A stretch of DNA of 64,000 bases, from contig CP031585.1 in NCBI GenBank assembly GCA_003217735.2, forward strand, positions 2,343,501-2,407,500, written 5' to 3'. Below, one piece after another: positions 1 to 13,033 of the stretch. How positions within the stretch are numbered: the stretch's first letter is position 1; each line of letters opens with the position of its first letter. The notes under the pieces were generated by a model. That model was not told the DNA's origin. It did no database searches and was given only the letters and a program-made list of their open reading frames with translations. This DNA comes from Marinibacterium anthonyi (GTDB lineage: Bacteria > Pseudomonadota > Alphaproteobacteria > Rhodobacterales > Rhodobacteraceae). Both the position numbers and the translations under genes were made by a program.

Positions 1-1
1 G

Positions 2-376
2 GGCTCGCCGCTGATGTCGGATCTGCAGATGATCCTGATGTCGATCGGCATGACCGACCTGCACATCCGCTATTCCGGCGGATCCCTGATGAGCGTGGTC
101 AACGTGCTGGTCGAAACCGATGCGCTTGCGGTGCTGCCGTTTTCCGTCGTCTTCGCGCAGCGGGGCGAAAACCGGATCACGGTGCTGCCCTACAACATCC
201 CCCAGCCGAACCGGTCGCTGGGGATCCTGTTGCACCGCACGTCGGCCCGCGCTCCGGTGGTTGACCGGTTCTCGGGCCATATCACCACCGCGTTCGAAAA
301 CCTGAAACACATCATCCGGCGTCACGAACGCGCCGTGGTGTGGGGCAATTCCGTCAGTGCCGACGATGGGGCATAA
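2..376 (+). CDS. LysR-type regulator, C-terminal part (gene starts left of window)
   Basis: This is the 3' end of a LysR-type transcriptional regulator. The frame is open from base 2, so the start lies outside the window. The visible residues match the second half of the inducer-binding domain, with alternating strands and helices and the segment VNVLVETDALAVLPFSVV, typical of the region next to the effector cleft in this family. The DNA-binding helix-turn-helix is not visible, so the target cannot be judged. The stop is followed by a short tandem repeat and then by a convergent LysR gene. The family is fairly clear; the inducer is unknown. Confidence 0.75.
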   Translation, partial: GSPLMSDLQMILMSIGMTDLHIRYSGGSLMSVVNVLVETDALAVLPFSVVFAQRGENRITVLPYNIPQPNRSLGILLHRTSARAPVVDRFSGHITTAFENLKHIIRRHERAVVWGNSVSADDGA

Positions 377-407
377 CGGCGATCGCAATCGGTTGCGGGT
401 GACGAAC

Positions 408-452
408 ACCTGATTGCACAGGGCCTGTTTGCATGGGGCCTGATTGCATAGG
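408..452. repeat. 15-bp tandem repeat, three imperfect copies
   Basis: Three consecutive 15-base units of the form RCCTGWTTGCAYRGG lie in the spacer between two convergent LysR genes. The units differ at a few positions. It is one of several short tandem arrays at gene ends in this window. Confidence 0.8.
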
Positions 453-459
453 GCCCGGA

Positions 460-1392
460 TCACGCGCCGGGCAGATAATCTGCCCGTGGCCTGCTTTCGC
501 GCTGCTTGGCGCGCAGGAAATCCACGAAGGCACGCAGCGGCGCCGGGGGACGGCGGCCATGATAATACAGGTAGGGCCCTTCGAAGTCCGGCCACCAATC
601 CCGCAGCACCGGGACCAGGGCGCCGCTTTGGAAATGCGGCTCAAGCCAGTTGCGAAAGGCCATGCACAGCCCCATCCCCGAAATCGTGTGCCCGATCATG
701 GCGGCGGACCCGTTGGTTCCGATAATCAGCCGCGCCCGGACATCCAGCGTGAAAGTCTCGCCGTCCCGCTCGAACTCCCACGGGATCAGCGCGCCGCTGG
801 AGAACCGACCGCGCAGGCAATCGTGGTGCAGCAGGTCGCGGGGATGGCCCGGCCTTCCCGCGCGGTCGAGATAGGCGGGGGCGGCGGCAAGGGCGGCCTG
901 TTGCCGCCGGGGCCCCAGCGGAATGGCGATCGTGTCCTGCGCGAGGGCCTCGCCATAGCGAATGCCGGCATCGCAATTCGCCGCGACCGCGTCGACCATG
1001 CGGTCATCCACCATGATCTCGACCTCCACGCCGGGGTTCTCGGCCATGAACTCTTCGATCAGGGGGGGCAGGATATCCACCATGACCGCCCCCGGCACGT
1101 TCAGCGCAAGCCGGCCCTGCAGGACCCCGCTGCGACTGCGCACCGCGTCCAGCGCATCGGCCGCCTCTGTCAGCAGCGGCGCGATGCGTTCGGCAAGCGC
1201 GCGGCCGGCTTCGGTGGGTGTCACGCTTCGGGTGCTGCGGGTCAGCAGGCGCGTATCAAGCCGGGTCTCGAGGCGGGCGATGGTTTCGCTGACCGTGGCC
1301 GGAGACAGGCCAAGCGTCCGTGCGGCGCTGCGAAAGCCGTTCGCCCGCACGACGGCGATGAAGACGCCAAGATCATCAAGGTTGTTCGTCAT
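460..1392 (-). CDS. LysR-type transcriptional regulator, divergent from PdxI-like reductase
   Basis: This is a full-length LysR regulator of 310 residues. The N-terminal winged helix-turn-helix covers about residues 5-65 and contains FRSAARTLGLSPATVSETIA. The C-terminal inducer-binding domain contains the PGAVMVDILPPLIEEF and DAGIRYGEAL segments typical of the subgroup that often controls oxidoreductases and efflux pumps. The ATG at 1392 gives the normal family start (MTNNLDDL); a longer frame upstream is an antisense shadow. It is divergently transcribed from the aldo/keto reductase at 1477 across 84 bases that hold a good LysR-box. It therefore probably controls itself and that reductase; this is inferred from layout. 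Confidence 0.92.
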   Translation of the reverse strand: MTNNLDDLGVFIAVVRANGFRSAARTLGLSPATVSETIARLETRLDTRLLTRSTRSVTPTEAGRALAERIAPLLTEAADALDAVRSRSGVLQGRLALNVPGAVMVDILPPLIEEFMAENPGVEVEIMVDDRMVDAVAANCDAGIRYGEALAQDTIAIPLGPRRQQAALAAAPAYLDRAGRPGHPRDLLHHDCLRGRFSSGALIPWEFERDGETFTLDVRARLIIGTNGSAAMIGHTISGMGLCMAFRNWLEPHFQSGALVPVLRDWWPDFEGPYLYYHGRRPPAPLRAFVDFLRAKQRESRPRADYLPGA

Positions 1393-1415
1393 TCCGATCA
1401 CTCTATTCGGTTTGA

Positions 1416-1438
1416 CGTGCATTTTCAAACAGTGCACG
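1416..1438. promoter_or_regulatory. Putative LysR-box, CGTGCA-N11-TGCACG
   Basis: A perfect 6-base inverted repeat with an 11-base spacer sits midway between the divergent LysR gene and the reductase gene. It fits the T-N11-A rule for LysR-family binding sites. The position lets one site control both promoters. Function is inferred from sequence and layout. Confidence 0.65.
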
Positions 1439-1476
1439 CGGCGCCATGTCTTTGCCATCGAAGAAGGAGACATTCC

Positions 1477-2331
1477 ATGACCAATTCCGCAAACGCCGCC
1501 GGCCGCTTTACCTTCCCCGGAACCGACCTGAGTGTGAACCGGATGGGCTACGGCGCCATGCAATTGGCCGGCCCGCACGTGATGGGACCGCCGAAGGACC
1601 CTGACGAGGCGGTTGCCGTGCTGCGCGAAGCCGTGTCGCTTGGCATCGACCATATCGACACCAGCGATTTCTACGGTCCCCACATCACCAACCAGATCAT
1701 CCGCGAGGCGCTGCATCCTTACCCGGATGACCTGGTCCTGGTCACCAAGATCGGCGCATGGCGCGATGACGCCGGGGCGTGGAACCTGCAGCGCGACGCG
1801 GCCTTCCTGCGCCAGTCGGTCGAAGACAACCTTGCCCGCCTGGGCCTTGAGCGGATGGACATCGTCAACCTGCGCATGGGCGGCCCCGAGGATGACATCG
1901 CCACACCGATGCGCACGATGCGCGCGCTTCAGGACGACGGGCTGATCGGCCACATCGGCGTCAGCACCGTCAGCGCCCGACAAGTCCGGGTCGCCCGCGA
2001 CATCGCGCCGGTCGTCTGCGTGCAGAACCACTACAACCTGGCGCACCGCGAAGACGACGCGCTGATCGATGCGCTGGCAGAGGATGGGATCGCCTATGTT
2101 CCCTATTTCCCGCTGGGCGGCTTCAGCCCGTTGCAATCGGCGACACTTGACGCCGTTGCGGCGGACATGGGAACGCGCCCGCAGAAAGTGGCCCTGGCCT
2201 GGCTTCTGGCCCGCTCTCCCAACATGCTGGTCATCCCCGGCACGTCCCGCAGAACGCACCTGCGCGAGAACATCGAAGCTGCGGCCCTGACCTTCAGCGC
2301 GGAGCAGAAAGCGCGGCTCGACGCGCTCTGA
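1477..2331 (+). CDS. pdxI: Aldo/keto reductase, YdbC/PdxI-like (probable pyridoxal reductase)
   Basis: This NADPH-dependent aldo/keto reductase of 284 residues closely resembles E. coli YdbC (PdxI), which reduces pyridoxal to pyridoxine in vitamin B6 salvage. Shared landmarks are the start pattern NRMGYGAMQLAGP, GIDHIDTSDFYGPH with the catalytic Asp and Tyr, LVTKIG with the catalytic Lys, and YVPYFPLGGF near residue 205. The usual catalytic His position reads VNLRMGG; YdbC also lacks a His there, so this is a subfamily trait and not damage. The ATG at 1477 has a strong ribosome site (AAGAAGGAGA) just upstream. It is divergent from a LysR gene that is probably its regulator. The substrate is inferred from similarity. 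Confidence 0.9.
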   Translation: MTNSANAAGRFTFPGTDLSVNRMGYGAMQLAGPHVMGPPKDPDEAVAVLREAVSLGIDHIDTSDFYGPHITNQIIREALHPYPDDLVLVTKIGAWRDDAGAWNLQRDAAFLRQSVEDNLARLGLERMDIVNLRMGGPEDDIATPMRTMRALQDDGLIGHIGVSTVSARQVRVARDIAPVVCVQNHYNLAHREDDALIDALAEDGIAYVPYFPLGGFSPLQSATLDAVAADMGTRPQKVALAWLLARSPNMLVIPGTSRRTHLRENIEAAALTFSAEQKARLDAL

Positions 2332-2656
2332 CGGCGCAACTGGGCGAGCGGTCTGCGTCACCGCGTCTTCGGTAGCGGGGCGTCGAACATGTCGGGTTCG
2401 CATCGAACCCCAAAGAGACGTCTGGACCGCTCGTCATCCAAGTCCCGCAAGCCCGGCAGCGGCGTGTCGCGCGTGATCCCGGTTCGGACACGGTGCATCA
2501 TGCGTCTTGTGTCGGACAATTCGCGTGAGCCGTTTGGCAACCGCCTGGAACGGACAGCCGCCCGGCGTGGTGACTTGCCGCCAAACAGACACCGACCAGC
2601 ACGGGCAGAAAGCAGCTTCAATCGCCCCGGAAACTGTCCATGACATAAAGGGTGGC
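2332..2656. other. Intergenic stretch with no convincing gene
   Basis: This stretch separates the pdxI-like gene from the convergent dehydrogenase gene. No complete gene or RNA is recognised. On the minus strand a 47-codon frame (about 2358-2501) has a protein-like composition ending MFDAPLPKTR, but it has no clear ribosome site. It may be a gene remnant or chance. Confidence 0.4.
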
Positions 2657-3727
2657 TCAGTCCAGGGTCAGCCGCAAAAGCCGGTCGGGCGAGGGGCCTT
2701 CTCCACGCGGGGAGCGGTTCGTCGTGATGACCCAGAGATCCCCGCCCATGGCTTCGACATCGCGGTAACGCTCGCCGGTCGACAGGACGGGCTTCAGGGT
2801 GCGCGCGGCCTCGTCCACGACGAACAGGCCCTGCGCGCCCAGGGCGGCAATCAGCAGTTCCGGCCCCGCGAAGGTCGCGCCGGAAGGTGCCCACGTCCTG
2901 CCCCCGGACTGTATCCATGGGGCGGTCATGCCTGCGCTTTGTTCGTCGCCCTGATCGACCGGCCAGCCATAGTTGCGGCCCGGCGTGATCCGGTTGATCT
3001 CGTCATGGGCCGATTGGCCGTGTTCGACCGCGTAAAGGTCGCCCTCCGGGTTCCATGCGAGGCCCTGGGGATTTCGATGCCCAAGTGACCAGACGGGCGA
3101 ACCGGGGCGTGGGTTGTCGGCAGGAATCGTGCCGTCCGGTGCGATCCTGAGGATCTTGCCGGCAAGACTGCGGGGGTCCTGCGGCCGCTGGCGGTCTTCG
3201 GTCCAGCCCGTCGTGATGTAAAGCATCCCGTCAGGGCCAATCGCGATGCGACCGCCGTTATACAGGCGATGTCCGGGGATCCGGTCGATCAGGACGCGGG
3301 TTTCACGCCAGCTTTCCCCGTCGAGCCGCGCCGCGATCACCCGGTTGGACGACCCGTTCGTTTCTTCGACGCTGTGATAGAAATAGCCGGTTCTGTCATC
3401 TGCGAAGTTCAAAGACAACGCCATGCCCAGCAGCCCGCGGCCGCCTTCGCGATAGATCGGGCGGGTCGTCGCAAGCGGCATGCGTGTCAGTCGGGTGTCG
3501 TTCACGCGCACAATGTCACCGCCCGCTTCGGTGATGTACAGAACCTCGCCATCCCGCGTGATATCCCACGGGTAATCAAGATCGCTCGACACGACCTCGA
3601 CCGACCAATCCCGAGGCTCGGACGCCAGGATCGGACGACTTTCCTGGGCGCTGGCCTGTCCTGCGATGGCGATAAGGCAGGAAAGGCGGATGGCGGATCT
3701 GTGCAGTGTTCTTGGTCTCGTCGGCAT
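2657..3727 (-). CDS. Secreted PQQ-dependent aldose sugar dehydrogenase-like protein
   Basis: This is a six-bladed beta-propeller quinoprotein of 356 residues in the soluble glucose dehydrogenase / Asd (YliI) family, which oxidises aldoses in the periplasm using PQQ. The N-terminus (about residues 1-30, ending GQASAQES) is a signal peptide. Family landmarks are YPWDITRDG, GGRGLLGMAL, LYNGGRIAIGPDG, SLGHRNPQGLAW and EHGQSAHDEINRITPG followed by NYGWP; the His and Arg residues in these loops usually contact PQQ and calcium. The ATG at 3727 is preferred because AAGGA lies 9 bases upstream; longer starts lack a site and bury the signal peptide. No PQQ synthesis genes are in the window. The actual sugar is unknown. 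Confidence 0.88.
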   Translation of the reverse strand: MPTRPRTLHRSAIRLSCLIAIAGQASAQESRPILASEPRDWSVEVVSSDLDYPWDITRDGEVLYITEAGGDIVRVNDTRLTRMPLATTRPIYREGGRGLLGMALSLNFADDRTGYFYHSVEETNGSSNRVIAARLDGESWRETRVLIDRIPGHRLYNGGRIAIGPDGMLYITTGWTEDRQRPQDPRSLAGKILRIAPDGTIPADNPRPGSPVWSLGHRNPQGLAWNPEGDLYAVEHGQSAHDEINRITPGRNYGWPVDQGDEQSAGMTAPWIQSGGRTWAPSGATFAGPELLIAALGAQGLFVVDEAARTLKPVLSTGERYRDVEAMGGDLWVITTNRSPRGEGPSPDRLLRLTLD

Positions 3728-3985
3728 GGCGGCATGTCCTTGGGTGGGGCGTGCCATGAAGGCTATGCATCCCGGGACCTTCGAATAATGTGCAATATCC
3801 CGAAAACGTTTCTGAGCACGGGTCATCAATCCCGGGCCCGGACCCGGTCTGACGCCGCAGGCCAATCATGGGGTCGCGTCATCCCGGCTTTCGAAGGCGC
3901 GGCACTTGGCAGGGCGTTGCACACCGCCGTCCCTGTCGGGCGGAAACACAAGAAGATCGCAGGTCAGGAACAGGCCGGCCGATGC

Positions 3986-4879
3986 CTAGCCGCGATAACG
4001 AAGCGCCTCGATCAGCAGCTTGAAGGCCGCAGAGGCATGCCGTCGGCTTGGATAGAACAGGTGCAGCCCGTCAAAGGGCTGTGACCAGTCTTCAAGAACC
4101 GGTTCAAGACGACCGGAGGCCAGGTGGTCGGCCACATGGAAATCCGGCATGAAAGAGACACCGATGCCATCCAGCGTCGCCGCGATCATCGGGCCGATGG
4201 CGTTGAACACCAGCTGCCCGGGCGTGTGCACACGCAGGTCCCGTCCGTCTTTCGCGAATTCCCAGGCATAAAGACCCCCGTGCGAGGGAAGCCGCACGTT
4301 TATGCAATTATGTTCCATCAGGTCTTGCGGGGTCGTGGGCCGGCCATGGGTTTCCCAATAGGCCGGCGTCGCCACGCAAATCAGCCGGACATCGGGGCCG
4401 ATCCTTTGCGCGATCATCCCTTCCGAGACGCGCTCGCCATAGCGCACGCCGGCGTCGAACTGTTCCGAGGCGATGTCCGTCAGGTTGTAGTCCACGATGA
4501 TTTCCAGCTTCACGTCCGGATATTCCCGGATCACCGGCATCAGCTTGGGCCAGAGCAGGCCTTCGACGGCGAAATCCGGAGCGGTCAGGCGGATCGTTCC
4601 CGCCGGTGTGTCCCGCAGTTCGGCCAGCCCGCGCAGCTCGGCCTCGATCTGTTCAAGGTTCGGCACAAGGGTCCTGAGCAATCTTTCGCCCGCCGGCGTG
4701 GTGGACACGCTGCGGGTCGTGCGGGTCAGCAGCCGCATCCCCAGCTTTTCCTCCAGCGCCCGGATCGTGTGGCTGAGCGCGGATTGCGACACGCCGAGCT
4801 GCCCCGCCGCCCGCGTAAAGCTGCGTTCGCGCGCGACAGCCGCAAAGGCGATCAGGTCGGTGATGTTTTCCCGAAGCAT
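3986..4879 (-). CDS. LysR-type transcriptional regulator
   Basis: This LysR regulator has 297 residues from the ATG at 4879; a TTG at 4891 would add four. The winged helix-turn-helix covers roughly residues 5-65 (FTRAAGQLGVSQSALSHTIR). The inducer-binding domain contains the ELRDTPAGTIRLTAPDFA and FDAGVRYGERVSEGMIAQR segments common in the subgroup beside MFS exporters and aldo/keto reductases. It points away from the NepI-like exporter at 5479, so the two are divergent across about 600 bases. That suggests, but does not prove, control of the exporter. Confidence 0.92.
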   Translation of the reverse strand: MLRENITDLIAFAAVARERSFTRAAGQLGVSQSALSHTIRALEEKLGMRLLTRTTRSVSTTPAGERLLRTLVPNLEQIEAELRGLAELRDTPAGTIRLTAPDFAVEGLLWPKLMPVIREYPDVKLEIIVDYNLTDIASEQFDAGVRYGERVSEGMIAQRIGPDVRLICVATPAYWETHGRPTTPQDLMEHNCINVRLPSHGGLYAWEFAKDGRDLRVHTPGQLVFNAIGPMIAATLDGIGVSFMPDFHVADHLASGRLEPVLEDWSQPFDGLHLFYPSRRHASAAFKLLIEALRYRG

Positions 4880-5478
4880 TGTTCTGATCAACTCACGAAT
4901 GGAACAGGCGAAGGAGGAGCATGGCCGTTATATACGGGTGTTTTGCCAATCGGACTAGTGACTCAGGCTCATGACAGACTTCGTGTCGCCGATATTGTTC
5001 GCGGCGCGTCTACGGTTACCTGCTTGGCCACGACACCGACGCTTTTCGCGTCGTGACCGAGAGGGACGAAACACATGGTCATCCAGCCAAGCGGCTCTGC
5101 ATCTTCGAATGCAGCCAACAGCGATTGTTTCACCGCGACCCTCCGGGTCACCCGCCTGATCGTCACCTTCGGCCATGGCCGGGTTCAGCGACAGGCTGGT
5201 CCGGTGCAGGAGGTTTGCCAGGGCGATGCCGACCGGTTTTCAGCCGGGTGGCGGACGGGACGAAGCACGTCTGCGACGACGCCTATCTCGGCTGATCCGG
5301 CACCGGCGTGCGCTGCCCGCGCGACCGACCCTGTGCGGCCTTGCCCGGTCGATCGCGGTGACCGAGACGGTCGTGTTCAACATCCGGCGCGGCGAAGACC
5401 GCCGCATCGCCCCTGCGCCGCTGCCGTCCGTGGGAGGAGGGGCAGCGGCAGGGGACCATTCCAACCAAGAGGATCATC
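4880..5478. other. Long intergenic stretch between LysR and exporter
   Basis: No complete conserved gene is recognised here. A strong plus-strand Shine-Dalgarno (AAGGAGGA at 4910-4917) leads into an ATG at 4921 that opens only a 17-codon frame ending at 4974. A minus-strand frame at about 4969-5166 and a plus-strand segment near 5370-5410 (TVVFNIRRGEDRRIA) look like fragments of decayed proteins. The promoters of the divergent LysR and exporter genes should lie here. It reads as eroded accessory DNA. Confidence 0.4.
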
Positions 5479-6660
5479 ATGACCACCTCCTCCACTCTCG
5501 AAGACGGGCCGGCGGCCGGCCGCGGCGCGGTTCTGTCCATGTCGCTTTGTGTGGCGATGCTGATTGCATCGGAATTCATGCCGGTCAGCCTGCTGACGCC
5601 GATTGCCGACAGCCTGAACGCAAGCGACGGCCAGACCGGGCAGGCGGTGTCGATCAGCGGCTTCTTCGCCGTTGCGGCAAGCCTGCTGGTGTCGACGGCC
5701 GCGGGTCGCCTGAATCGCAAATCCGTGCTTCTGGCGATGACGGCGCTGATGCTTCTGTCGCTGGTGATGATCGCGGCGGCCCCGAACTTCATCGTGCTGA
5801 TGATCGCGCGGGCCTTGCTGGGCATTGCCATCGGCGGTTTCTGGTCGCTGTCCACGGCTGTCATCATGCGGCTGGTGCCTGCGGACCGCGTGTCCGGCGC
5901 ACTGGCGCTGATGTTCGCGGGCCAGGCCACGGCCGCAGCCTTTGCCGCGCCCGTCGGCAGCTACCTGGGCGAAGTGATCGGCTGGCGCGGCGTCTTCTGG
6001 GTGCTGGTGCCGATCGTCGCGCTGGACCTGTCGTGGCAGGCCGTCGCCTTGCCGTCGCTGCCCGCCCAGGAAAGCCAGAGCTTGCGTTCCATGTGGCGGG
6101 TCCTGCGGCGCCCCTACATCACCCGTGCGCTGATCGCGGTGCTGTTCACCTTCTCCGGCGCTTTCGCGATGTTCACCTATCTGCGTCCCTTCCTTGAAAC
6201 GGTTTCGGGGGTCGGTGTGCAGATGCTGTCGGTGATGCTTCTTGTGCTGGGCTGTGCCGGATTCATCGGCACCTTCCTGGGCGGGCGGCTGACCAACGGG
6301 CATCTCATGGCGCTGCTGCGGTATCTTCCGCTGGCGATGGCGGCGGCGACGCTGGCGCTTCTGGGCCTGGGCCATGTGCTGAGCCTTGTCGCGATCCTGC
6401 TGGCGGTCTGGGGCGCCATCAACACGGCCTTGCCGATCAGCTGGATGGGCTGGGTCACGCAGGAGGTGGGCGACGCCCCTGAAGCGGCGGGCGGGCTGAT
6501 GGTCGGTGCGATCCAGCTTGCGATCCTGCTGGGGGCGACGATCGGCGGGGCGTTGCTGGACCATGTGGGGATCTCGGCCACGTTCACCTGCAGTGCCATT
6601 TTGCTCGTGGTCGCCGGGGTGATCGTCGGCTCGGGCCATGCCCTGCGCGCAGGCGCCTGA
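5479..6660 (+). CDS. nepI: MFS exporter, NepI-like (purine ribonucleoside efflux family)
   Basis: This is a 12-helix major facilitator of 393 residues in the drug:H+ antiporter group. Collinear similarity to E. coli NepI (YicM), a purine ribonucleoside efflux pump, is clear: EFMPVSLLTPIADSL in helix 1, IGGFWSLSTAVIMRLVPADR in helix 4, AAPVGSYLGEVIGWRGVFW in the loop and helix 5-6 region, and FSGAFAMFTYLRPFLE in helix 7. The start ATG has AAGAGGA upstream. It is a single gene, divergent from the LysR gene ending at 3986. The substrate is inferred from family resemblance only; many relatives export other small molecules. Confidence 0.87.
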   Translation: MTTSSTLEDGPAAGRGAVLSMSLCVAMLIASEFMPVSLLTPIADSLNASDGQTGQAVSISGFFAVAASLLVSTAAGRLNRKSVLLAMTALMLLSLVMIAAAPNFIVLMIARALLGIAIGGFWSLSTAVIMRLVPADRVSGALALMFAGQATAAAFAAPVGSYLGEVIGWRGVFWVLVPIVALDLSWQAVALPSLPAQESQSLRSMWRVLRRPYITRALIAVLFTFSGAFAMFTYLRPFLETVSGVGVQMLSVMLLVLGCAGFIGTFLGGRLTNGHLMALLRYLPLAMAAATLALLGLGHVLSLVAILLAVWGAINTALPISWMGWVTQEVGDAPEAAGGLMVGAIQLAILLGATIGGALLDHVGISATFTCSAILLVVAGVIVGSGHALRAGA

Positions 6661-6953
6661 AAGCCCCACGAAATCTTCGTCCTGCGGAACGGGGGGCGCT
6701 CTGCAGGACGATCCGTCACGGGGACCGGTCGCCAGGACCGCGCCAAGCAGACAGTCCCAGGCCCGAAATTCCGGCAACGCCCCTGATCGCCGCGGCAATC
6801 CCCAACAGCCGCGCTCCCTTGCGCCCGATGCAATCGCTCACGAAATCGAGCAGAAGGCGGGACGCGATGCCGGAACCGTCAGGACCCAAAGGTCGGCCCG
6901 GGGGGCTTGGGCGGTTGAAGCCCGACCGGGGGATGTCACGTCCACCTGCCCAG
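6661..6953. other. Intergenic stretch between convergent exporter and reductase
   Basis: No gene, RNA or clear terminator is recognised in these 293 bases. A minus-strand frame reading ASRLLLDFVSDCIGRKGARL near 6820-6880 has protein-like composition and may be a remnant, but nothing supports a functional gene. Confidence 0.35.
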
Positions 6954-8392
<1,439 letters not shown>

Positions 8393-8431
8393 TGAGCTAC
8401 TCCCCATCTATTGGACAGGATCTGGCGTAAA

Positions 8432-9295
8432 TTAAGCTACTCGTTGCACCTGCTGATCGGGTTGGTTGATATCATTTCTCTGCCAGTAGACCAGCGCCGG
8501 AGGCTGGCCGCCCAGGGCTGAATGCGGGCGCTGGTTGTTGTAGAAGCTCATCCATTTCCGGATGGCCGCTTTCGTCTCCGATCCGGTCTCCCAGGCATGC
8601 AGGTAGACGCACTCGTATTTCAGGGTGCGCCACAGCCTCTCGATGAAGATGTTGTCGAGGAACCGGCCTTTCCCATCCATCGATATGCGCACGCTGGACC
8701 GGCGGAGCCGATCCGTCCAGGCAAAGGAGGTGAACTGGGATCCCTGATCTGTATTCATTATCTCTGGCGGGCCGAACTTGTGGATGGCCTCGTTCAGCGC
8801 CTCGACACAGAAGTCGGCCTCCAGCGTGTTCGAGATCCGCCAGGACAGGACCTTGCGGGTGTGCCAGTCCATGATCGCCACGAGGTATAGGAACCCGCGC
8901 CGCATGGGCAGGTAGGTGATATCCGAGCACCAGACCTGGTTCGGGCGTTCCACCCGCAGACCTCTGAGCAGGTAGGGATAGGTCTTGTGGCCCTTCGTCG
9001 GCCTGCTCGTGTTGGGCTTCTCGTAAATCGGCATTAGCCCCATCAGGCGCATCAGTCGCCGGATGCGCTTCTCGTTCACAAGGTGTCCGTCGTTACGCAG
9101 ATGCCAGGTCATCTGCCGAACGCCGAAGAACGGCGTCTCCAGGAACTGCTCGTCGATCCGCCGCATCAGGCCGAGGTTCCGCTCAGACTCGCCCTTGGGC
9201 GTGTAGTAGAAAGACGAGCGCGCGATCGACAGCAGCTTGCACTGCTGGCCGATCGACAGGTCCGGGTGGTCCGGCTCGATCATGCCGCGCCTCAC
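8432..9295 (-). CDS. IS3-family transposase OrfB (DDE catalytic subunit)
   Basis: This is a 287-residue DDE integrase-core transposase. An N-terminal HTH_21-like region (about 10-70, GVRQMTWHLRNDGHLVNEKR) precedes the rve core. Catalytic residues are visible: Asp in WCSDITYLP, Asp in MNTDQGSQFTS and Glu in FIERLWRTLKYE. The C-terminus ends with the usual YNNQRPHSALGGQPPALVY. The GTG start overlaps the orfA stop by 4 bases in the -1 frame, so the active protein is probably an OrfAB fusion made by frameshifting. No internal stops are seen, so it may still be functional. Confidence 0.95.
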   Translation of the reverse strand: MRRGMIEPDHPDLSIGQQCKLLSIARSSFYYTPKGESERNLGLMRRIDEQFLETPFFGVRQMTWHLRNDGHLVNEKRIRRLMRLMGLMPIYEKPNTSRPTKGHKTYPYLLRGLRVERPNQVWCSDITYLPMRRGFLYLVAIMDWHTRKVLSWRISNTLEADFCVEALNEAIHKFGPPEIMNTDQGSQFTSFAWTDRLRRSSVRISMDGKGRFLDNIFIERLWRTLKYECVYLHAWETGSETKAAIRKWMSFYNNQRPHSALGGQPPALVYWQRNDINQPDQQVQRVA

Positions 9296-9585
9296 TTCCC
9301 GCCCCAGGGCTTCAGCTTTCGTTCCAAAAAAGAGTTGGCCACCGCCAGCTCCCCGATCTTGGCGTGGAGCTCCTTCACCTGCTCCTCGTCAATCTCGGGC
9401 TTCTTGCGGCCCCCGCGCTCGAACACACCGGAGGCGCCTTCGAGCAGGGCTCGCTTCCATTGATGGATCATCGTCGGATGCACCCCGAACCGGCTTGCCA
9501 GCTCGGCGGCCGTCTCCTCGCCTTTCAGGGCTTCCAGCGCGACCTTCGCCTTGAACTCAGGCGCGTGCTGCTTCCGTTTCGACAT
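9292..9585 (-). CDS. IS3-family transposase OrfA (helix-turn-helix subunit)
   Basis: This is a 97-residue OrfA with the HTH_8/IS3 helix-turn-helix (FKAKVALEALKGEETAAELA, then FGVHPTMIHQWK) that recognises the element ends. A C-terminal heptad-like helix (about 65-90) mediates multimerisation and linkage to OrfB. The gene lies directly inside the right inverted repeat and overlaps orfB. The ATG at 9585 has AAGGAGA upstream. Confidence 0.93.
   Translation of the reverse strand: MSKRKQHAPEFKAKVALEALKGEETAAELASRFGVHPTMIHQWKRALLEGASGVFERGGRKKPEIDEEQVKELHAKIGELAVANSFLERKLKPWGGK
9325..9331 (-). promoter_or_regulatory. Putative -1 frameshift heptamer T_TTT_TTG in orfA
   Basis: Near the end of orfA the coding strand reads T TTT TTG in the orfA phase, a classic X_XXY_YYZ slippery site. 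A -1 slip here enters the orfB frame, which is open through to the orfB GTG (FGTKAEALGREV and onwards). This would give the OrfAB transposase typical of IS3 elements. Confidence 0.65.
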
Positions 9586-9665
9586 CTCTGATCTCCTTCT
9601 CGTCGAAGATCAGCAGACTGCAAATCGTAGCTTATGTCAGTGTCCGAATTTCGGGGGGTAGCTCA

Positions 9666-10031
9666 ATGGCCTCGCATGGTATTGCCACACTGACCATTGC
9701 TGAAATGCTGATCCTCGTCGGCGACGACCCAACACGCATTCGTTCGGAAGCAGCCTTTGCAAAGCTCTGCGGGGTTTGTCCTATCCCTGCATCCAGTGGC
9801 CAAACCCGCCGTTTCCGTTTGAACCGTGGCGGCAATCGGCAAGCCAACGCAGCGCTCTATCGCGTGGCCATCGTCAGGATGCGAAGCCACGAACCAACGC
9901 TTGCCTATGTCAAAAAGCGCACAAAAGACGGAAAGAGCAAAAGCGAAATAATCCGGTGCCTGAAGCGCTACATCGTCCGTGAGATCTACAGCCAGCTCTG
10001 TGTGCCCAAAACAGCTGAAATCGCGCCTTGA
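9666..10031 (+). pseudogene. IS110-family transposase, C-terminal remnant
   Basis: The translated segment DDPTRIRSEAAFAKLCGVCP, followed by the SSG and LNRGGNRQANAALY motifs, is the C-terminal Transposase_20 domain of IS110/IS116/IS902 elements. The upstream half with the DEDD nuclease domain is missing. The remnant begins exactly at the right end of the IS3 element, and no N-terminal part is found left of that element. After about base 10003 the frame runs into unrelated sequence. It is not functional. Confidence 0.85.
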
Positions 10032-10044
10032 CGAATATAGGAGC

Positions 10045-10221
10045 TTCAACTCGATGGTGGAAAGGTTCTTCAAGACCATCAAGTCCGAGCTGATCTGGCT
10101 GGTTGCATGGCAATCCCGCCAGCAGGCCGAAAACGCCGTCGCCAGATACATCGATGGGTTCTATAACCCCGTCAGGCGGCATTCATCGCTCGGCTTCCAG
10201 AGCCCCATTGCCTTCGAGTGA
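10045..10221 (+). pseudogene. IS3-family OrfB, C-terminal remnant (different element)
   Basis: About 58 codons match the end of an IS3-family OrfB: NSMVERFFKTIKSELI carries the catalytic Glu, and YIDGFYNPVRRHSSLGFQSP is the typical C-terminus. It differs from the intact element at 8393-9665, so it comes from another insertion. It is fused directly behind the IS110 remnant and has no start of its own. Confidence 0.85.
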
Positions 10222-10276
10222 ACGGCCAAAGAAGTGAGCTAAACGCTCTCCACAATAGCCGGGCAATTCCAACGGC

Positions 10277-10631
10277 GCGATCGTCGGACGGGGAGCCGAG
10301 GCGCGCATTCCCACCCGCCGGAACGGCCGCCCCTCGAAAGGGGACTGCCCGGATGCCAGTGCCCGAAACGGCATCCTTCACGAGACACGACGCTTGGGAC
10401 GAGCCAACTGGAAGCGGTCGGTCGACTACCACGTCCGAAGTCGGGTCGAGGCACGGATGACCTCGCAGGTTCTCTCAGACCTGTGGCGTTCACCTGCTCG
10501 ACCTCAAGTCCCTCGGCGAGCGCATCGCCTCACGCAACCCTGATCGGCAGACCGCCGAGATCCAAATCCGCATCGCCGTCATGAACAGATACAACACCCT
10601 CGGCATTACCGACATCATCGCCGTTGGTTGA
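10277..10631 (+). pseudogene. IS5-family transposase remnant with frameshift
   Basis: Two adjoining frames together match the C-terminal third of an IS5-family transposase. The first (from 10277) reads ARIPTRRNGRP ... HETRRLGRANWKRSVDYH ... RSRVEARM. The second, in another frame (10461-10631), reads LDLKSLGERIASRNPDRQTA ... IQIRIAVMNRYNTLG and ends at a stop. A frameshift near 10455 separates them and the 5' two thirds are absent. It is the third transposase relic in a row. Confidence 0.75.
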
Positions 10632-10793
10632 ACACAGAGCGGGAATGGGGAGGATCGGCCGTCAGCCGATTAGCGCAACAACGCCCTTTAATGCGTACAA
10701 CACTTCGTTGGCAGTGCGCGTTCCAGAGACCACCTAGAGCCCGTTTTTTGATTAGCGGGATTGAAGGCGACAAGCTGCGCAAAGCGAGTCAGA

Positions 10794-11906
10794 TCATCTC
10801 TGTCTATTGTGGGGAGGCAGGTACGTCTCGGGGCTTAAGTCCTTGCTGAATACGAGCTGCATTCCCGGCCAGTTCGCATATTTGTCGCCAGTTTCCCGGA
10901 TATGTGTATAGCGTTTTAGGCCGACCCAGGACCGGTGTCCGCTGACGGCTGCAGCATGGGGAATGTTCCAGCCCATTTCAAATAGTCGCGAGATGCCTTC
11001 GTGACGCAGGTCGTGGAAGTGTAGATTATCGATGTCGAGTAGCTTACAAGCGCGCGTAAAGTTAGCCGTGATCGCGTCCGGGGAGTAGGGGAAGATCTCA
11101 GCTTTTCGCTCGGGCATGCTGTCGATGATCCGAATGGCCTCGTCGGGCAGGTCGACCCAGGTGTCGTTGCCGAGCTTTTCGCCGGGATGCTTCATGTCAC
11201 GGACCAGAATGCGTTTGTGCTCCTTCTGGAAATCATCCCAGGTGAGACGGGTGATCTCCGCCTGTCGGCGCGTCGAGAAGAGAGCGAAAACGATCACCTT
11301 GTGCATGGGCATGGCTTGAGGTGTTCTCTGGCGCCGATCAATGAAATGGGCCAGCAGCCGGTCGAGTTCATCGAGGGTGGGCCTGCGGTTACGCTGCGCG
11401 GAACGGGAGATAATCCCCATACGGCGCGCGACGGTGATCGCGTCTCTCATCTCCCGGTCATCCAGTCGAAAGTCCCACATCGGTCGTGCTATGGCGAATA
11501 TGGAGGCGAGATGGCTCGCGTAGTTCCCGACGGTTTGCGGTTGCCCGGGCAGTGACTGAAGGAACTCGATGATATCCTTCGACTTGATGGTGGAGCAGGG
11601 CAGATCGGCGATCGGGTAGGTGGCGATGGTCCTGAGGACTTGGGCTTTTGTGCGACCGATGTCCTTCACGGCTTCCTCGGTATAGCGCTCGATCGCTTTG
11701 GACAGCGGAGGGTCGGATGCGTTCAACTCTTCCAGCGCACCAGGTTTTGCTAGCTCTTTCTCGCGTTTCTTTATCCAGGCGGCCGCAGCTGGGCGTCTGT
11801 CAAAAGTCTTCGTCTCATGATAGACGGTGCCCTCGCGCATCACTCGTACACGTGCCCTGTAGCTGTGACTTCCATCCTTGCGTTTGCGTGTGGTGATCGA
11901 GCCCAT
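10794..11906 (-). CDS. int: Tyrosine recombinase, dusA-associated integrase
   Basis: This is a phage/island-type tyrosine integrase of 370 residues. The N-terminal part (about 1-60, MGSITTRKRKDGSHSYRARV) is an arm-binding-like domain, a SAM-like core-binding domain follows, and the catalytic domain covers about 200-350. Active-site residues are visible: Arg in LFSTRRQAEITRL, Lys in RDMKHPGEK, His/Arg in FHDLRHEGISRL, His in VSGHRSW and the Tyr nucleophile in GLKRYTHI. The ATG at 11906 gives the normal family N-terminus. It sits back to back with dusA, the known target of a family of integrases that insert at the dusA 5' end. It probably marks the right boundary of a genomic island to the left. 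Excision genes are not seen. Confidence 0.93.
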   Translation of the reverse strand: MGSITTRKRKDGSHSYRARVRVMREGTVYHETKTFDRRPAAAAWIKKREKELAKPGALEELNASDPPLSKAIERYTEEAVKDIGRTKAQVLRTIATYPIADLPCSTIKSKDIIEFLQSLPGQPQTVGNYASHLASIFAIARPMWDFRLDDREMRDAITVARRMGIISRSAQRNRRPTLDELDRLLAHFIDRRQRTPQAMPMHKVIVFALFSTRRQAEITRLTWDDFQKEHKRILVRDMKHPGEKLGNDTWVDLPDEAIRIIDSMPERKAEIFPYSPDAITANFTRACKLLDIDNLHFHDLRHEGISRLFEMGWNIPHAAAVSGHRSWVGLKRYTHIRETGDKYANWPGMQLVFSKDLSPETYLPPHNRQR

Positions 11907-11919
11907 GATGGTCTCCCCA

Positions 11920-11986
11920 TTTGGTCCACGAAATTGTATTTGGTCCTCAGGACCAAATCCAATGTCAAAATCGACGAGTTTGGTCC
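11920..11986. repeat. Cluster of four TTTGGTCC octamers between int and dusA
   Basis: TTTGGTCC occurs at 11920-11927, 11939-11946 and 11979-11986, and its complement GGACCAAA at 11950-11957. The second and inverted copies form the perfect dyad TTTGGTCC-TCA-GGACCAAA. The cluster lies just upstream of the integrase start and 90-160 bases from the probable crossover site in dusA. That is the usual place for integrase arm-type or excisionase sites. An autoregulatory operator for int is the alternative. Confidence 0.75.
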
Positions 11987-12025
11987 ATAATGAGCGGAAA
12001 CGAGACGAACTGTAGGTGCCTGTAA

Positions 12026-13033
12026 GTGGATGAAAAATATAAAAAACCGGATTTATCAAGGGCCGCCCGACTGTCCGTGGCGCCGATGATGGATTGGACG
12101 GACCGCCATTGCCGCTATTTCCACCGGCTGCTGAGCGGGCGGACATTGCTTTATACCGAAATGGTCACCGCGCCCGCGCTGGTGCGCGGTGGTGCGTTGC
12201 ATCTGCTGGAATTCAACGCCGAGGAACATCCCGTCGCGCTGCAGCTGGGCGGATCGGATCCCGATGAGCTGGCCCAGGCCGCGCGGCTGGGAGCGCAGGC
12301 GGGATATGACGAGATCAACCTGAATGTCGGCTGCCCGTCGGACCGGGTGCAATCGGGCTGCTTCGGCGCGGTGCTGATGGAACGCCCGGAGCTGGTGGCC
12401 GATTGCGTGGCTGCGATGCGCGATGCGGTGGATGTCGAGGTGACGGTGAAATGCCGGATCGGGGTGGACGATCAGGACCCGCAGGCCGTGCTGCCCGATT
12501 TCATCGACCGGATGCGGGATGCCGGGTGCCGGCGGATCACGATCCATGCGCGCAAGGCCTGGCTGCAGGGGCTGAGCCCGAAGGAAAACCGCGATGTGCC
12601 GCCGCTGGATTACCCGCTGGTCATCGCCATGAAGCAGGCGTTCCCGGATATGCACGTGTCGATCAACGGGGGCGTCACCTCGCTGGAACAGGCCAGCGCG
12701 TTGCTGGACCAGGGGCTGGACGGGGTGATGATCGGGCGGTCGGCCTATCACGATCCGGCGGCGATCCTGTGTGCCGCCGATCCGGTGATCCATGGCGAAG
12801 GCGACGCATCGGATCCCGTCGCGGTGGCGCGGGCAATGCAGCCTTATATCGAATCACACCTGATCGCCGGCGGCAGGCTGCACCAGGTGACGCGTCACAT
12901 GCTGGGGCTGTTTGCGGGCCGTCCCGGCGCGCGGCGCTGGCGGCAGGTGCTGTCGGCGCAGGCCACACGTCCCGGCGCGGGGCCTGAGGTGATCGACGCG
13001 GCGCTCGAACCGGTTCTGTCGAGCGCCGCCTGA
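12026..13033 (+). CDS. dusA: tRNA-dihydrouridine(20/20a) synthase DusA
   Basis: DusA is an FMN-dependent enzyme that reduces uridine 20/20a in the tRNA D-loop. The 335 residues form a TIM barrel followed by a helical tRNA-binding domain. Visible signatures are VAPMMDWTDRHCRYFHRLLS, INLNVGCPSDRVQSGCFGA with the active-site Cys at about residue 102, VKCRIGVDD, ITIHARKAWLQGLSPKENR and INGGV. The start is GTG at 12026, immediately after an in-frame TAA. The first ten codons are strikingly AT-rich (DEKYKKPDLS) compared with the GC-rich body. This suggests the 5' end was supplied by the inserted element. The gene otherwise looks intact and has full family length. Confidence 0.95.
   Translation: MDEKYKKPDLSRAARLSVAPMMDWTDRHCRYFHRLLSGRTLLYTEMVTAPALVRGGALHLLEFNAEEHPVALQLGGSDPDELAQAARLGAQAGYDEINLNVGCPSDRVQSGCFGAVLMERPELVADCVAAMRDAVDVEVTVKCRIGVDDQDPQAVLPDFIDRMRDAGCRRITIHARKAWLQGLSPKENRDVPPLDYPLVIAMKQAFPDMHVSINGGVTSLEQASALLDQGLDGVMIGRSAYHDPAAILCAADPVIHGEGDASDPVAVARAMQPYIESHLIAGGRLHQVTRHMLGLFAGRPGARRWRQVLSAQATRPGAGPEVIDAALEPVLSSAA
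12079..12112. other. Probable integration (att) core inside dusA 5' end
   Basis: Elements with dusA-associated integrases recombine in the conserved 5' segment of dusA, which here encodes VAPMMDWTDRHC. The change from AT-rich leader to GC-rich dusA body just upstream is consistent with a crossover near here. No second copy of this segment was found in the window, so the other end of the island lies outside or has been lost. Confidence 0.45.

Follow-up and report, generated by a model that had tools for sequence, protein, structure and literature searches.

A dusA-associated integrase and its attachment junction in Marinibacterium anthonyi, probably the surviving right end of an integrated element

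The window, a stretch of 64,000 nucleotides from Marinibacterium anthonyi (C1:2343501-2407500), carries dusA, the gene for tRNA-dihydrouridine(20/20a) synthase A, at 12026..13033 on the plus strand and a tyrosine integrase gene at 10794..11906 on the minus strand. The dusA product scores 486.6 bits against the DusA equivalog profile PRK11815.1 (cut-off 269). As the sequence-only reading had described, the integrase faces away from dusA, and 119 bases separate the two genes at the dusA 5' end. This spacer (11907..12025), the P arm, contains arm-like repeats: TTTGGTCC at 11920, 11939 and 11979, and GGACCAAA at 11950. To the left, IS copies and fragments (8393-10612) stand between the integrase and a group of LysR, aldo/keto reductase, GSDH-type dehydrogenase and MFS exporter genes (1..8100), for which membership in an element is putative.

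The integrase has an intact frame of 370 amino acids and is matched by the Pfam Phage_integrase profile (E 1.8e-15) and by PHROG integrase profiles. A 450-amino-acid frame reaching 12146 is a mechanical extension of the same gene, as the related proteins begin with MGSI. The motifs TRRQAEI, HDLRHEG, SGHRSW and KRYTH (residues 212, 298, 322 and 331) appear to preserve the whole R / H-x-x-R / H / Y active site. Another genus carries an integrase 95% identical to this one.

In a maximum-likelihood tree of 55 rows, the window integrase falls into a 40-row clade (support 99/98) together with the phage integrases AH2, H66, BcepMigl, BcepIL02, DC1 and mEp460, the six dusA-associated integrases (DAIs) in the tree that were named by Farrugia et al. 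2015 (PMC4482086). For this tree, 47 DAI loci were entered and 16 were removed on account of stops within the matched span; several long branches were flagged. All 13 outgroup rows, namely lambda, P2 and 11 further tyrosine recombinases from the same genome, lie outside the DAI clade; P22, whose region was without int, is not among them. The Rci shufflon recombinases are the sister group of the clade (support 95/95) and thus the nearest outside group; unlike the window integrase, however, Rci lies outside the DAI clade, and the neighbour of the window integrase is dusA rather than pilV. The placement of the integrase in the dusA-associated family, which had been proposed earlier, is thereby confirmed at the level of sequence phylogeny.

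The divergent arrangement is not a chance one, as a near-full dusA is divergent from and adjacent to a related integrase at 49 of the 61 named loci. The spacer, with its length extrapolated to the dusA start used in the window, measures 119-120 bases in 26 of these 49 and ranges from 60 to 579. At the remaining 12 loci, several of them at contig ends, only a dusA-like start (4) or no dusA match (8) was found. Viewed from the dusA side, a related integrase lies within 1.5 kb at 11 of 31 loci in relatives; some of these integrases are 30-39% identical, and one is a short, weak match.

The first 45 bases of dusA (12026..12070) are supplied by the element. They comprise a GTG start and the leader VDEKYKKPDLSRAAR, which continues in frame into the core residues LSVAPMMDW; the attR core CTGTCCGTGGCGCCGATGATGGA follows on the dusA side at 12071..12093. 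The dusA gene of the empty-site congener G002 lacks an adjacent integrase and begins with its own start, MTPLHASRLSVAPMMDW, where the window has the leader. Lysine-rich leaders of a like kind are present in many relatives. Moreover, DNA to the right of the junction is conserved in both congeners, as expected of the core genes described there, with the match running from 12071 in G002 and from 10853, integrase included, in G001, whereas the left flanks differ among the three genomes. Judged by these sequence comparisons, the integrase-dusA junction is an attR, at which dusA acquires its new start from the element, in frame into its conserved core. The locus resembles the dusA-specific islands of PMC4482086 in the clade of its integrase, in the divergent position of that gene at the dusA 5' end, in the start that the element supplies to dusA and in its conserved core, and the supply of a new dusA N-terminus by attR is shared with Vibrio elements of the IMEVchUSA3 type (PMC8409611). 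The window integrase and its junction thus belong to a known family of elements. Unlike the IMEVchUSA3-type elements (PMC8409611), the window element has no identified mobilisation or RdfN gene, in an annotation made without an RdfN/PrtN profile search.

A second copy of the dusA 5' segment, predicted to lie to the left, was not found. Throughout the 6.81-Mb genome (13 contigs), a 29-base core pattern with up to three mismatches matched dusA alone. A looser core pattern with up to two mismatches matched dusA and two sites with two mismatches each, and no GGACCAA occurs within about 1.5 kb of these two. The 72 kb left of the integrase contained no core match with up to three mismatches; TTTGGTCC and GGACCAAA were absent from 2283000-2355419; and a P' arm pattern, searched over about 300 kb of the genome, gave no match with up to four mismatches in 2283000-2407500. 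Weak core matches in the region, with 4-5 mismatches of 22, were set aside. As a positive control, the core pattern recovered both ends, with 0-1 mismatches, in G194, G094 and L050 (end-to-end distances of 58,007, 43,958 and 4,772 bases); the integrases of G194 and G094 are only about 39% identical to that of the window. With working controls, the genome-wide core patterns revealed no attL carrying the native dusA 5' end. This sets the window element apart from the islands of Farrugia et al. 2015 (PMC4482086), who report attL/attR pairs for 94 islands. The absence of attL is not unique to M. anthonyi, since attL was also not found in G001, where the integrase-dusA end is intact, or within 60 kb in G075; the contigs of G115, G121 and G140 are too short to judge its presence. 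A left boundary some 50 kb away, at a STAS gene (C1:2304859), was suggested by the order acs-TRAP-hyp-STAS-dusA, without an integrase, in G002; it was ruled out, as in M. anthonyi this gene is embedded in a nif cluster, and in G001 ABC transporter genes, rather than dusA, come after it.

The IS sequences noticed in the earlier reading are real, although the term remnants understates them, as one IS3-family copy is complete (8393..9665, minus strand, two frames). A Sulfitobacter plasmid carries a copy 94.7% identical to it over query positions 14-1286, and no obvious target duplication of 3-5 bases was seen by eye in its flanks. C-terminal transposase fragments of the IS110 family (9666..10031, plus strand) and of the IS3 family (rve_3; 9979..10221, plus strand) follow, and then an IS5-family fragment at 10269..10612 (start approximate, from the covered length; end from the match), detected through match H93 with IS3 and IS5 features beneath. 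This IS debris begins on the integrase's 3' side. GC content is 0.573 in the 2.5-kb bin holding the integrase and IS sequences and 0.623-0.702 in every other bin; that of the genes at 1..8100 is host-like.

Whether bases 1-8400 are syntenic core was checked against congeners G001 and G002; synteny was lacking in both, and the comparison gave no left boundary. With the integrase inside the DAI clade as well, neither outcome that the sequence-only reading had named as counting against it was obtained. Congener synteny is likewise lacking throughout 2335000-2351899, where the best match comprises 229 bases at 86% identity to the start of a G001 contig (window about 8073-8301) and the others are short or 65-81% identical and scattered over contigs. 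Partial matches of 66-74% in relatives, two of them on one G002 contig, occur in 2320000-2334999. Further left lies a nif cluster (about 2285.6-2315.9 kb), with nifH, nifD and nifK scoring over the profile cut-off. As this cluster is orthologous to G002 contig C17, a contig other than that of dusA, the left side consists partly of shared genus DNA. A STAS-like gene, named by eye and without an NCBIfam match, lies within the M. anthonyi cluster (C1:2304859-2305578; L091 4860-5579); the G002 nif cluster does not contain it, and in G002 the gene adjoins dusA.

Taken together, these results make it quite likely that what survives in the window is the right end of a DAI element (attR, integrase and P arm), the left part of which has been lost or cut away. 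The integrase joined the attP core to its counterpart in dusA, at about codons 16-23, and therefore the element's leader forms the dusA start, in frame, as can be read directly from the bases. The left part, which would include the native start of dusA as well as attL, would have disappeared, probably through IS activity. We infer this loss from the absence of a match, and the patterns would miss an attL that had decayed strongly. Because attL is missing, such a remnant would not be expected to undergo normal excision. Of the dusA island boundary claimed by the sequence-only reading, the family and the layout are supported, and the bounded island is not.

Retention of the integrase and leader by the host solely as a dusA promoter and start, with the element gone and the integrase devoid of a mobile role, is partly compatible with the preferred reading. 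As dusA now relies on the element's start codon, this alternative has some appeal; however, the frame and apparent active-site motifs of the integrase are intact, and its 95% identity to an integrase of another genus points more to a recent acquisition than to long domestication, which makes exclusive retention by the host rather unlikely. A complete dusA island that includes the genes at 1-8100 and extends beyond them, with attL drifted or far to the left, is improbable: dusA-specific islands do reach 184,808 bp (PMC4482086), another DAI element of this genome has ends 127.8 kb apart, and DNA without congener synteny runs left from the integrase, but whole-genome patterns found no attL, arm signals are absent from 72 kb, the GC content is host-like, and the nif cluster 40-70 kb to the left has its ortholog on another G002 contig.

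For the surviving right end preferred here, the neighbouring genes are not demonstrable as cargo, because the other end of the element was not found. The claim that an island carries the LysR, reductase, dehydrogenase and exporter genes is therefore unproven, and these genes are not assignable to the window element: IS sequences intervene, and neither attL genome-wide nor arm signals over 72 kb were detected. The junction is real; the adjacent catabolic and transport genes should not be named cargo.

The spacer repeats are probably integrase arm sites, an int operator, or both. The word GGACCAA occurs four times in the window spacer; among 300 mononucleotide shuffles, 2 attained this number. 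A 7-base word recurs three or more times, with both strands counted, in 45 of the 57 spacers examined, and the words fall into the classes GGACCAA (21 spacers, the window included), GTACCAA/TACCAAA (15), GTACAAC (3) and others (6). In the three bounded islands G194, G094 and L050, the 8-mers shared by the P and P' sides were equalled in 35 of 1000 shuffles for G194, in 0 for G094 and in 6 for L050; the longest common word, 10 bases in each, was equalled in 62, 51 and 67, respectively. Words common to both sides thus exceed chance only moderately. A scan of the flanks of the named loci with the P' arm pattern gave no match at up to two mismatches. It is tentatively proposed, as a possibility falling somewhat short of probable, that each class of DAI element has its own arm repeats, altered jointly at both ends: the repeats and their recognition by the integrase would have diverged in step around an unchanged dusA core, which would prevent cross-reaction of several DAI elements in one genome. 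The proposed classes are GGACCAA (the window), GTACCAA (a second element and relatives), and GGGCCTACA and GTACAAC (others), with GNACCAAGNACCAAATTTTT as the paired P' arm. Neither PMC4482086 nor PMC8409611 uses the expression 'arm-type' in its main text, and a literature search gave, among the matches listed, no paper with both dusA and arm-type.

The second DAI of M. anthonyi (C1:2644714-2645784), 87% identical to the window integrase at the DNA level, sits at a non-dusA site (L006, C1:2635000-2654999, 9715-12611; far end, L208 and L250), and DAIs at non-dus sites are also described in PMC4482086. Its dusA-like start, ending GCGCCCATGA, is fused to an sspC that is truncated and belongs to an SspABC set: the joined frame matches the SspC profile over 2-570 of 1045 and adjoins SspB and SspA. 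A scan of 2535000-2674999 had made this element seem one-ended, until a far end was found beyond the scanned range at C1:2518134, with the core TGATGGATTGGACGG followed by TGTACCAAGTACCAAATTTTT near 2518199. The latter is the same P' arm as at an attP-like junction on contig C32 of G001. The two ends are oriented towards each other at a distance of 127,825 bases and are both of the GTACCAA class, so that they appear to bound one element. These flanks lend no support to a simple insertion into sspC, as the far end adjoins tRNA-Arg(ccg), not the remaining sspC. Repeats in the P and P' arms offer a simple means of matching up the two ends of DAI elements, as with this one.

Beside the second DAI, L006 5000-9573 contains SCO1-, PCu(A)C- and Dsb-like genes and a MerR-type regulator, all named by eye. 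The attP-like junction of G001 (L079, G001:C32:6000-16450, about 9770-10427) consists of an integrase remnant, a dusA-like start, the core and the P' arm, and the C32 integrase is interrupted by sequence resembling the end of the window's IS3. Six further sites in the M. anthonyi genome (L199-L204; three on C1 and one each on C5, C6 and C8) have equal Phage_integrase scores and the same 491-amino-acid frame, and probably represent a multi-copy mobile element.
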